This document shows, piece by piece, positions 46,955-53,145 of a DNA stretch of 60,894 bases. The notes beneath the pieces were generated by a model. It saw only the letters and a program-made list of their open reading frames with translations. It had not been told where the DNA came from and ran no database searches. The DNA is from a virus: positions 1 through 60,894 of IMG/VR virus record IMGVR_UViG_3300035725_000002; one strand, written 5' to 3'. Made by a program: the position numbers and the translations under genes. The stretch's first letter is position 1. Every line of letters begins with the position of its first letter.

Positions 46955-47460
46955 TTCATACCTTCAATCTGATCGAGTAGTCGTTGCTTCATTTCTTCAA
47001 GCGAGCTTTCATCAGCTACTACGATCACACCGGCACACCGTTTCTTCTTGTCCCTGGTCACGTCGCGCGCTTCTACACCGGCCAGGCGCGCGATCTCGTT
47101 CTCAATCTGTGGGATCATCTGCGCATAGTTGTCAGTGGTGATCGATTGTAGCCAGGTAAGATCGTCCGGTGACAGCTTGTACCAGTCATCAACGATGAGC
47201 TTGGCCCGCAGCTTCATTTTCAAAGCTGAGTATAGTAGCTCTGTGCGATTGTCAGATCTGATTGTGTGTATCACGCGGTAGTGAGCGAATGGATACACGT
47301 GCGCGAAACCGGCCCGCGTGTGTAACGGATCAGAGCTTGGCCCGATCCAGTAACGTTTGTGCTCTGGTGGTATCGCTTCCAACACCGCAGCGCGCATCAA
47401 CTCAATCTGTACTGGTGCGGTGATCGTAGATGTTTCGATGATGGCAAGGTATGTGCTCAT
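46951..47460 (-). CDS. Hypothetical protein
   Basis: 169 aa. N-terminal strands, then charged helices ending in EEMKQRLLDQIEG. No recognised family. Coupled to the Fis-type gene by 4-base overlap. Confidence 0.5.
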   Translation of the reverse strand: MSTYLAIIETSTITAPVQIELMRAAVLEAIPPEHKRYWIGPSSDPLHTRAGFAHVYPFAHYRVIHTIRSDNRTELLYSALKMKLRAKLIVDDWYKLSPDDLTWLQSITTDNYAQMIPQIENEIARLAGVEARDVTRDKKKRCAGVIVVADESSLEEMKQRLLDQIEGMK

Positions 47461-47726
47461 TGTTTCTTTCCTGAGTGATCGATCAGATGCCGGTAACGCT
47501 TCTTAATTGGTTTGCGATCTATCTTGAGCGCGGCCAGGCGCGCGATGAATGTCTGATGCTTCATTCCTAATCGCCTGGCTGCGGTGCTCAGGTTGCCGTC
47601 AGCTTCATTTAAGGCCCGCTCGCAAACGGTGCGCTGTATTAGCTTCATTGCTTCATCAAACGAGTATTGCCCGCTTATGACGCTCTGTGCTACCTGGTTG
47701 AGTGCTTCATTGTCCACGGCGCTCAT
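47457..47726 (-). CDS. Fis-type helix-turn-helix protein
   Basis: 89 aa. Residues about 35-75 (ERALNEADGNLSTAARRLGMKHQTFIARL) are the HTH_8 of Fis and NtrC C-terminal domains: helix, then AARRLGM-type turn and recognition helix. No AAA+ part is present. It may bend DNA or regulate; the palindromes near 56-58 kb are candidate targets. Basic C-terminus. Confidence 0.8.
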   Translation of the reverse strand: MSAVDNEALNQVAQSVISGQYSFDEAMKLIQRTVCERALNEADGNLSTAARRLGMKHQTFIARLAALKIDRKPIKKRYRHLIDHSGKKQ

Positions 47727-48567: not shown

Positions 48568-49506
48568 TTATCCCTTTCGTAGTTGTACGTGCTTGAAAGC
48601 CTTTTCTGTGGCCACGCGGCCACGTGGTGTGCGGTCAATGAATCCGATCCTTAACAAGTAAGGTTCGATCACCTCTTCTAAACTGTCCTTCTCTTCGTTG
48701 AGTACCGATGTCAGCGTTACCAGGCCCACCGGCCCACCGTTGTACTTGTTGACTAGCAGATCCAGGTACGCGCAGTCAATGCGATCCAGGCCCAACGAAT
48801 CAACGCCGTTGAAGTCAAGCGCTTTCTCTGCTAGCCACCGGTCGATCACCTCACCAGGACAATGCACGGCTGCGAAGTCACCCACACGCCTTAGAAGCCG
48901 GTTAGCCACGCGCGGTGTGCCGCGTGAGCGCTTGGCGATCTCACTGGCTGCATCGTAGCCGATCATCAGCTTGAGCACATCGGCGCTACGCTGCACGATC
49001 TTTGTGATCATCGTATCGCTGTAGAATTCCAGATGTCCGACAATGCCGAAACGATCCCGCAACGGCTTACTGACTAAGCCTGGCCGTGTAGTGGCACCAA
49101 CCAGAGTATAACGCGGCAACTCGATTGACACCTGAGATCCTGAGTACGTCTTAACAGTGGTGGTATAATCTTCCATCGCTGTGTATAACGTCTCTTCGAT
49201 CACTGGTGCCAGCCGGTGAAGCTCATCAATGAATAGTACATCGCCTTCATTGAGAGTCTTGAGCACGCGCGCCAGATCGTCAGCCGTCTTGATTGACGGT
49301 GCGAAAGCTTGCTTGATCTCTGCGTGCATTTCATTAGCGATGATACCGGCCAGCGTTGTTTTGCCTAGTCCTGGTGGCCCGATCAGAAGCACATGATCGA
49401 GCACTGCGCGACGTTGCATTGCGGCCCGTATGCTGAGCGCAAGGTTATTGCGTACAGCATCCTGGCCCTGGTACTCGTTCAAGCTCTGTGGTCTGATCTC
49501 AGTCAT
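48568..49506 (-). CDS. ruvB: RuvB Holliday junction branch-migration ATPase
   Basis: 312 aa, nearly the size of bacterial RuvB (about 335). Walker A GPPGLGKT (43-50), Walker B DELHR (94-98), sensor 1 GATTRPGL (137-144), LRDRFG (149-154) and, near the end, the RTPRGR wing of the winged-helix domain are all intact. RuvB drives branch migration with RuvA and RuvC. No RuvA or RuvC is recognised in the window, so it may use host RuvA, or act with another phage protein. The presence of a full RuvB in a phage is uncommon. Confidence 0.93.
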   Translation of the reverse strand: MTEIRPQSLNEYQGQDAVRNNLALSIRAAMQRRAVLDHVLLIGPPGLGKTTLAGIIANEMHAEIKQAFAPSIKTADDLARVLKTLNEGDVLFIDELHRLAPVIEETLYTAMEDYTTTVKTYSGSQVSIELPRYTLVGATTRPGLVSKPLRDRFGIVGHLEFYSDTMITKIVQRSADVLKLMIGYDAASEIAKRSRGTPRVANRLLRRVGDFAAVHCPGEVIDRWLAEKALDFNGVDSLGLDRIDCAYLDLLVNKYNGGPVGLVTLTSVLNEEKDSLEEVIEPYLLRIGFIDRTPRGRVATEKAFKHVQLRKG

Positions 49507-50398: not shown

Positions 50399-51154
50399 TT
50401 ACACCTCAAACTGTTTCAGCGTTACCTGATACATAATTGCTTCGGCTAGATGCTGCACGCGACACGCAAGCGATCCGTCAAGATCCGCGATAGTCCGCGC
50501 GACACGTTTGATCGCTTCCACCTGATCAACGGTGAAACCGTTACGCGTGATCGCGTGCCGCATCAACTGATCACTGTCTTGATCAAGTATGGCGTCACGA
50601 TTCATACAAGTGTGATCGGCGAAGTCACGCGCACGCTGAGCACGCACCAGCACATCGGCCAATGGTTCGCGGTCTGAATGATTGCCGGTGAGATCCTGAG
50701 CACGCGGTGACGGTACGTCTAGGATGATCTCAGAATGGATCGCCTTGCGATAATCTTTCTTCTGACGGTGCCGCAGCATCGCACCAGGTGAGCACACACA
50801 TTCGCGCATCGGATTATTCCACCAGCCGCAGGGACACGGCTTAACAAACGCCAGCCGGTCAAACATGATCGCGCGGATGTCGTTCTCACCGTTCTCTGGA
50901 TGGCCGATCACCGTGACAGTATAGCCACCTGTGATTGCGATCTCTAGTCCGCGTTTGATTGACGGTGCAAAGATCCGCAACCAGGCGTCAGCATCCGGTG
51001 CTTTTGGCGTGAGCGCTTCGCGTAGCTCTTCAATGTCATAGAGTGACACCAGGTAACAATCCGTTGCGCCGTTAGTGCGCGGATCATCGTGTAGCACCGC
51101 GTTTGTAATAAGGATCGATGCAAGATCCTTGATCGTGTCTGTCTCTTTTCTCAT
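50399..51154 (-). CDS. Degenerate ComM/YifB-like (Mg-chelatase family) protein
   Basis: 251 aa. IKRGLEIAITGGYTVTVIG (66-84) matches the ComM strand before Walker A, but the loop is GHPENGEND (84-92) with Glu90 in place of Lys, and the segment holding Walker B is missing. After the gap the sequence returns to ComM with KPCPCGWWNNP (105-115), ECVCSP, the VPSPRAQDL region and the C-terminal VARTIADL ... HLAEAI (218-239). It is therefore an internally shortened, probably ATPase-dead ComM. ComM is a branch-migration helicase of natural transformation; this form may compete with it or bind its DNA targets. It lies 0.9 kb upstream of RuvB in the same operon. Confidence 0.75.
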   Translation of the reverse strand: MRKETDTIKDLASILITNAVLHDDPRTNGATDCYLVSLYDIEELREALTPKAPDADAWLRIFAPSIKRGLEIAITGGYTVTVIGHPENGENDIRAIMFDRLAFVKPCPCGWWNNPMRECVCSPGAMLRHRQKKDYRKAIHSEIILDVPSPRAQDLTGNHSDREPLADVLVRAQRARDFADHTCMNRDAILDQDSDQLMRHAITRNGFTVDQVEAIKRVARTIADLDGSLACRVQHLAEAIMYQVTLKQFEV

Positions 51155-52241: not shown

Positions 52242-52645
52242 GCGGCCACCTCAAACGTGCGCACGATCTTAGCTAGATCGTGATAGTTCACCTCTTCGAT
52301 CAGGTTTGCCGCAATGCCGATCAAAAGATCGGTATCAAAGCCTGTCAGCTTAGCAACACCAGCGCTGATCAGGTGCTCATCGCTAACCTGATCGGCGAGA
52401 TCAGGATTCGTGCAATACTTGCGCGAATACTCTCTGATCACGTTGAGCGCACGCTGTGCCTCTGCGATGGCAAGATCCTTTGTCTCACCGTGCGTCTGTG
52501 CGGTGATCTCACCGTCTCTGTTGTTAGATGCTGCGATCAGATGACCTTGACCTAAGACGCTGAAAGCATAATCACATCTAAATTCATTCTGTAAAGCCTG
52601 GCGCATCGCTTCAATCGCTTGCGCCGTGTCTGGTGTTACTTTCAT
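52238..52645 (-). CDS. Hypothetical protein next to the GGDEF gene
   Basis: 135 aa from the ATG overlapping the GGDEF stop. HGETKDLAIAEAQRALNVIREY and DQVSDEHLISAGVAKL helices. Unknown function, but coupling to the GGDEF protein suggests shared expression. Confidence 0.5.
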   Translation of the reverse strand: MKVTPDTAQAIEAMRQALQNEFRCDYAFSVLGQGHLIAASNNRDGEITAQTHGETKDLAIAEAQRALNVIREYSRKYCTNPDLADQVSDEHLISAGVAKLTGFDTDLLIGIAANLIEEVNYHDLAKIVRTFEVAA

Positions 52646-53145
52646 GATTGATCCCCTTTTCTGGTTTGCTTGCGTGCCTGTAACTGAGCGCACGCGGTGC
52701 CGTATGTTGGCCCGTACGTGCCGGTGAGTGTGACGATCAGATGATCGGCCACCTGGTGCCGTATCCGTTCAATCTGTGAGCGTAGCGCGGCCACCTGGTG
52801 CACCGGCACCAGGATCGCAAACTCATCACCACCGATCCGAAAACACCGCGCGCCTAGTCCGAAGCTGGCCGCAACGTCAACGATCCGCCGTGCTAGCGCT
52901 TGCAATAGCTTGTCACCGGCCACCTGGCCGCGAAGCTTGTTAACCTGGCCGAAGTGATCCGCATCGATCACCAGGATCGCCAACTGTGGATCAGCTTCAG
53001 CACCGGCCCGCGCAAGATCAAACGCGCGTCTATTCGCTAAGCCGGTGAGCGCATCTGTATTAGCCTCACGTTCTAATAGCTTGCGCCGTTCTGCTAACTC
53101 TGGTGCGATAGCATCGGCGATCCTGGTTCTAAGTGAATCAAACAT
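52642..53145 (-). CDS. GGDEF-domain protein (putative diguanylate cyclase)
   Basis: 167 aa. A short helix (1-28) leads into NTDALTGLANRRAFD (29-43), IDADHF with metal Asp61, Asn69, GD (77-78), and an intact RIGGDEF (103-109). The I-site RxxD that gives product inhibition is absent. The domain ends early: the AD.ALY helix typical of the C-terminus is missing. If folded as in PleD it would make c-di-GMP from GTP; the shortened end makes activity uncertain. Phage-borne GGDEF proteins are rare, though SXT-type elements carry diguanylate cyclases. Confidence 0.88.
   Translation of the reverse strand: MFDSLRTRIADAIAPELAERRKLLEREANTDALTGLANRRAFDLARAGAEADPQLAILVIDADHFGQVNKLRGQVAGDKLLQALARRIVDVAASFGLGARCFRIGGDEFAILVPVHQVAALRSQIERIRHQVADHLIVTLTGTYGPTYGTACAQLQARKQTRKGDQS

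Follow-up and report, generated by a model that had tools for sequence, protein, structure and literature searches.

A phage gene predicted to encode a motorless ComM descendant that retains the zinc finger and tail domain

The window analyzed here, a viral record taken at its full length of 60,894 nucleotides (60.9 kb), carries a gene whose sequence marks it as a shrunken descendant of the bacterial branch migrator ComM (YifB), in which the ATPase motor has been lost and the zinc finger and tail domain have been retained. The gene occupies positions 50399..51154 (-), starts with ATG, and encodes a protein of 251 aa, hereafter P0001, the mini-ComM of the window. The record contains genes for a terminase, a major head protein, a tape measure protein, and a family A DNA polymerase; it also encodes helicases of the UvrD and SNF2 types and has a match to the DNA topoisomerase family. 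The P0001 start codon and the stop codon of the ORF upstream share an ATGA overlap, and the downstream ORF begins 2 nt past the P0001 stop, which places the gene inside an operon-like run. Promoter and terminator scans returned site numbers no higher than in shuffles. At window positions 52642-53145 (-), a phage protein with a diguanylate cyclase domain is encoded, its GGDEF motif being intact (PF00990, 3e-20).

Profile searches revealed both the parentage of P0001 and its internal deletion. Pfam assigned Mg_chelatase_C (6e-11) and Mg_chelatase (1e-4) to the protein, both above the gathering score, and the NCBIfam YifB profile TIGR00368 matched it at 5.3e-13 over profile positions 339–498 of 499; at 48.4 bits versus a curated family cut-off of 362, P0001 is not a whole-protein member of this family. 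A TIGR00368 search of the whole record returned exactly two pieces, in one frame and without stops: profile positions 201–224 at 50885-50956, and positions 339–498 at 50429-50863. The ~114 profile positions between them, including both pore loops and the Walker B region, are replaced in P0001 by ~10 residues, and profile positions 1–200, i.e., the Lon domain and linker, found no match in the protein. The N-terminal piece alone is weak (E 0.046), yet it scores better than 2000 of 2000 shuffles of residues 1–100. Consistent with a deletion, the RxLEIA helix and the CPCG motif are 39 residues apart in P0001, versus 144–149 in canonical and phage full-length ComMs. An intact ComM hidden by a frameshift, a concern raised in the initial annotation of this stretch, was not seen: the search of the whole record detected no further ComM part, which argues against this explanation. 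The two in-frame pieces and the lost motifs uphold its description of P0001 as a phage-encoded ComM derivative with an internal deletion and a dead ATPase.

From the N-terminus, P0001 begins with an extension (residues 1–58; 50981..51154 (-)) with no detectable homology and mostly low model confidence. A Lon remnant within residues 1–60 was considered and found no support, given a score no better than shuffles and poor model confidence. A helix, the first AAA+ strand, and a P-loop relic follow (residues 66–90, IKRGLEIAITGGYTVTVIGHPENGE; 50885..50959 (-)), opening with IKRGLEIAITGG (residues 66–77). Here, GHPENGEND (residues 84–92) stands in place of GPPGTGKTM, so that the Walker A lysine is a glutamate. 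The deletion junction (residues 91–98; 50861..50884 (-)) lacks Walker B as well as the pore loops CL1 and H2i. The zinc ribbon KPCPCGWWNNPMRECVCSP (residues 105–123; 50786..50842 (-)) comprises the KPCPCGWW...ECVC segment (residues 105–121) and retains all four ligands, C107, C109, C119, and C121, embedded as a CPCG...CxC ribbon. It leads into a basic helix, PGAMLRHRQKK (residues 123–133; 50756..50788 (-)), delimited by alignment to Legionella ComM. The Mg_chelatase_C lid (PF13335, residues 181–242; 50429..50614 (-)) carries VARTIADL (residues 218–225) and HLAEAI (residues 235–240), with a pLDDT of ~95 over residues 191–240. The motifs quoted in the initial annotation are thus present letter for letter, and the two losses that it had named, the Walker A lysine and the Walker B region, were both found.

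The list of losses is longer than that of the initial annotation. In addition to Walker A and Walker B, P0001 lacks the N-terminal Lon-like domain and, when aligned to Legionella ComM, the sensor-1 asparagine (Asn346, replaced by Lys105), and the arginine finger (Arg381, replaced by His140), the labels ‘sensor 1’ and ‘arginine finger’ being our own reading of the alignment. A sensing role has been proposed for R381, and region 366–373, on the helix after the ribbon, has been proposed as a DNA contact (PMC11612176); of its basic residues, R369 and K373 are kept in P0001 as R128 and K132, and R366 is lost. Since disruption of Walker A abolishes both DNA binding and helicase activity of ComM (PMC11612176), P0001 should not be able to work as ComM does. 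ATP-driven hexameric branch migration by this protein is predicted to be impossible, given the missing Lon ring, P-loop lysine, Walker B, pore loops, and arginine finger. Having lost most of the defining features of ComM and kept the ribbon and lid, P0001 is a ComM derivative rather than a ComM helicase.

AF2 modeling of P0001 from a 32-sequence alignment gave a mean pLDDT of 79.4 and a pTM of 0.74; residues 1–60 were poor, most of the remainder exceeded 75, and many core blocks reached at least 90. A Foldseek search of the model against the PDB placed ComM (8rxd, E 1.7e-4) first, followed by MCM subunits and a second ComM entry, with a magnesium chelatase subunit among further matches. The structural comparison proposed in the initial annotation thus returned a ComM-like fold. 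The ComM of Legionella pneumophila (PDB 8rxd, 8rxk, 8rxs, and 8rxt) is the best PDB match of P0001 in both sequence and fold; P0001 has about half its length and shares ~30% identity with it. According to sequence and model, P0001 retains the first AAA+ helix and strand ahead of the P-loop, the sensor-1 strand, the ribbon with its helix, and the lid as one compact unit, all of these being shared with ComM. Magnesium chelatase ChlI/BchI, RavA, and MCM belong to the same AAA+ branch, the lid family PF13335 being named after ChlI; in contrast to P0001, they are active ATPases without a ribbon at the corresponding place. RadA/Sms, a second bacterial branch migrator, combines a zinc finger with a Lon-like domain, but its RecA-like motor is an unrelated ATPase, and only one relative of P0001 (L107, below) has a KaiC/RadA-type gene nearby.

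A search of viral and genome contigs with P0001 alone identified no close relatives, and relatives were found by stepwise profile scans. These recovered six further ATPase-dead mini-ComMs (153–173 aa) of the same architecture from other phage contigs, a search of other phages having been proposed in the initial annotation: L107, identical to L116 (164 aa, 39-kb contig), L139 (153 aa, 82-kb contig), and L141, L142, L143, and L144 (161–173 aa, 23–61-kb contigs). We defined P0001-type mini-ComMs by the K-PCPCG...CxC ribbon, the lid, 33–51 residues from helix to ribbon, no P-loop lysine, and no Walker B; P0001 fits this definition and is counted among the seven members. The K-PCPCG motif, all four zinc cysteines, and the lid histidine and glutamate are present in 7/7, whereas a usable Walker A lysine, Walker B, or arginine finger is found in none. 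Sensor 1 is a lysine in all seven, versus an asparagine in 28/28 canonical proteins. P0001 and its six relatives form one clade with support of 97/98 under the site-heterogeneous LG+C20 model, or 93/87 with the sensor-1 column removed, and a single change of label was recovered in 98% of bootstrap trees; because of the long branches, the order inside the clade is less sure than the grouping itself. Across the 32-sequence alignment, invariance is confined to the four zinc cysteines, the glycine that follows CPC, and a single glutamate of the lid. The L142 model (161 aa) was more confident (pLDDT 93.2, pTM 0.84), and its helices and strands follow one another as in P0001. Its Foldseek matches in the PDB were weak and comprised general AAA+ proteins, with ComM at rank 10 (E 0.012), and no viral model in BFVD scored below 0.001.

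L141–L144, the only lineage with near relatives, are under purifying selection, with dN/dS of 0.16–0.30 (Nei–Gojobori, dS 0.4–1.0); this ratio applies to L141–L144, as P0001, without near relatives, does not allow its own selection to be measured. Together with the invariant ribbon, these values exclude decay for the family. The occurrence of mini-ComMs in several unrelated phages, with one lineage under selection beside recombination genes, makes them look like a reused part and not a broken gene. The initial annotation had favored a selected new role over decay, and the clade of like phage proteins with its invariant zinc cysteines backs this view.

Five compact phage ComMs are less reduced (L054, L058, L027, L068, and L078), lacking the Lon domain and keeping partial AAA+ cores, with helix-to-ribbon spans of 46, 68, 74, 99, and 131 residues versus ~146. 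A single origin of all twelve compact proteins is compatible with the data (AU p 0.43); the P0001-type seven form one clade, and the other five scatter. Such graded forms show possible intermediate stages in the dismantling of an AAA+ motor. Among seven full-length phage ComM homologs, the Walker A lysine is changed to arginine in two (L056, 4437-5906, and L065, 4437-5900), and the arginine finger is missing in four (L032, L049, L065, and L096); a one-residue Walker A deletion also occurs within this damaged set.

The gene neighborhoods of the P0001 relatives lean toward DNA metabolism. In the window, an intact phage RuvB is encoded at 48568..49506 (-), 0.9 kb from P0001 and on the same strand, with both Walker A and B preserved (TIGR00635, 2.6e-115, equivalog). 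No RuvA was detected in the record with profile TIGR00084, and P0001 itself did not match this profile. The phage relative G001 (IMGVR_UViG_3300005518_000037), 70–80% identical in several head genes, has a syntenic RuvB (73% identical) and no mini-ComM at the corresponding place; the mini-ComM is thus accessory, and RuvB is independent of it. A small Fis-type HTH protein is encoded near RuvB at window positions 47457-47726 (-) (HTH_8, 9e-6), with a similar gene in G001, and the accessory region of G001 near RuvB encodes a low-complexity Ala/Tyr/Asp repeat protein (AAYAADAA...; L006, 3608-4240 (+)). In L142, a PD-(D/E)XK nuclease (7e-4) and RecT (1e-33) lie within ~5 kb downstream of the mini-ComM; the same pair was recognized by eye in L141, L143, and L144, and the gene adjacent to the mini-ComM in L143 has a weak, clamp-like match to DNA polymerase III beta (3e-4). 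RecT was detected in each of the L141–L144 records as well as in G010; the records of L139 and L107, like the window, yielded none. In L107, RadC (8e-36) is next but one to the mini-ComM, followed by a KaiC/RadA-like ATPase. Of the less reduced copies, that of G012 is flanked by a dNMP kinase-like gene and by DNA polymerase A, and a PD-(D/E)XK gene is nearby; that of G011 follows a DNA ligase. As L141–L144 represent one lineage, these associations are leads and not statistics; those with RecT, RuvB, and RadC are each limited to one lineage of the clade, and none is common to all.

Considering these neighborhoods, we infer that a DNA or recombination adaptor is the best fit, and propose, with a probability of roughly 45%, that mini-ComMs are motorless zinc-ribbon/lid adaptors of phage recombination or replication. 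The ribbon and the helix that follows it would bind DNA, possibly branched, or a recombination partner, and the lid would supply a second contact, whereas the work would be done by another protein, either a phage motor or annealase or a host factor. Candidate working partners are RuvB in the window phage, RecT and the nuclease in L141–L144, and possibly the KaiC/RadA-like ATPase in L107. Of the seven clade members, P0001 alone has basic residues at the equivalents of both R369 and K373, and net charge across mini-ComMs ranges from -5 to +5; with the basic residues not kept by relatives, DNA binding by the post-ribbon helix is unsure, being plausible for P0001 and not general to its relatives. 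The true function may instead be to bind a partner. In a bolder and unlikely version of this proposal, the ribbon and lid would act on their own as a recombination mediator, directing a phage motor or annealase (RuvB, or RecT with its nuclease) onto branched DNA, a motorless branch-migration cofactor shaped by stepwise loss of the engine. Mini-ComMs add a candidate accessory gene, one unrecognized by PHROGs, to phage recombination modules. They also offer natural minimal constructs (ribbon, supporting strands, and lid) for probing junction binding, partner recruitment, and inhibition. In the cryo-EM structures of ComM, the zinc finger was too poorly resolved to model (PMC11612176).

We rank inhibition of host ComM as the main rival, though we regard it as unlikely. 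A dominant-negative mini-ComM would bind host ComM or another host ring helicase, its DNA, or its partners and halt branch migration, with protection of phage DNA or reduced uptake and recombination of foreign DNA as the outcome. Its target would be common, as TIGR00368 matched 14/14 control genomes, 8/14 of them over the cut-off; a fragment of lid and ribbon could sit on a partner surface, and the damage in full-length phage ComMs points the same way. However, the ATP-site elements of the ring interface are missing from mini-ComMs, and mixed hexamers, which the initial annotation had suggested, become less likely because these and the pore elements are gone. The clade is also distant from all bacterial ComMs, with P0001 at most 39% identical to any row and on a long branch, a distance that would be surprising had selection favored entry into the ring of one host, and the lineage with close relatives encodes its own recombination genes. 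Zinc ribbons occur widely in diverse processes, and P0001 is encoded among small accessory genes, including the GGDEF-domain gene, so that a zinc protein on a ComM scaffold acting outside recombination, e.g., in transcription or host takeover, can be envisaged. The neighborhoods of the relatives and the retention of the entire C-terminal lid besides the ribbon speak against such a role, which appears rather improbable.

The absence of RuvA and the adjacent RuvB would fit a mini-ComM that stands in for RuvA and targets the phage RuvB to junctions. Yet G001 maintains its RuvB without a mini-ComM, and RuvB was found in 0/10 other searched phage records with a compact or full-length ComM. An obligate pairing is rejected on these grounds, and a specific RuvB partnership seems decidedly improbable. 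Finally, P0001 could be a decaying host-derived gene or an assembly artefact without function, since it has no close relatives of its own and is absent from the syntenic place in G001. Against this stand the single architecture and clade across independent assemblies, the dN/dS of one lineage, the invariant cysteines, the confident fold, the open frame, and the ATGA coupling to the upstream ORF, which leave this explanation very little room.

Among the PHROGs, BFVD, and open-licence literature searched, no described counterpart of the reduced ComM form was found. P0001, L142, and L139 had no PHROG match, and the best match of L107 (E 0.001) was a family of unknown function; the literature search returned no description of a phage ComM derivative or of a phage RuvB. 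Truncated comM adjoining phage DNA, as here, is known from prophage and island insertion sites, e.g., phage WO sr1WO, which sits in the Wolbachia magnesium chelatase gene (PMC9203015). Such fragments are canonical pieces of the chromosome at the edge of a prophage or contig, whereas the P0001 gene lies in the contig interior, in a phage operon, and has an internal deletion. Many viral-contig matches to ComM were set aside as 3′ fragments at contig ends or adjoining recombinases. In the fecal ‘Bacteriophage sp.’ records examined in INPHARED, comM was of the ordinary type, either full-length or cut at an edge, and several of these records showed chromosomal neighbors; the short comM gene of Acinetobacter phage MD-2021a lies at a contig edge, and plasmid matches were ordinary-looking copies. 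In L034/L036 (2351-4495), a serine recombinase ORF continues into the 3′ part of comM as a single open frame, which suggests that a serine-recombinase element inserted there.
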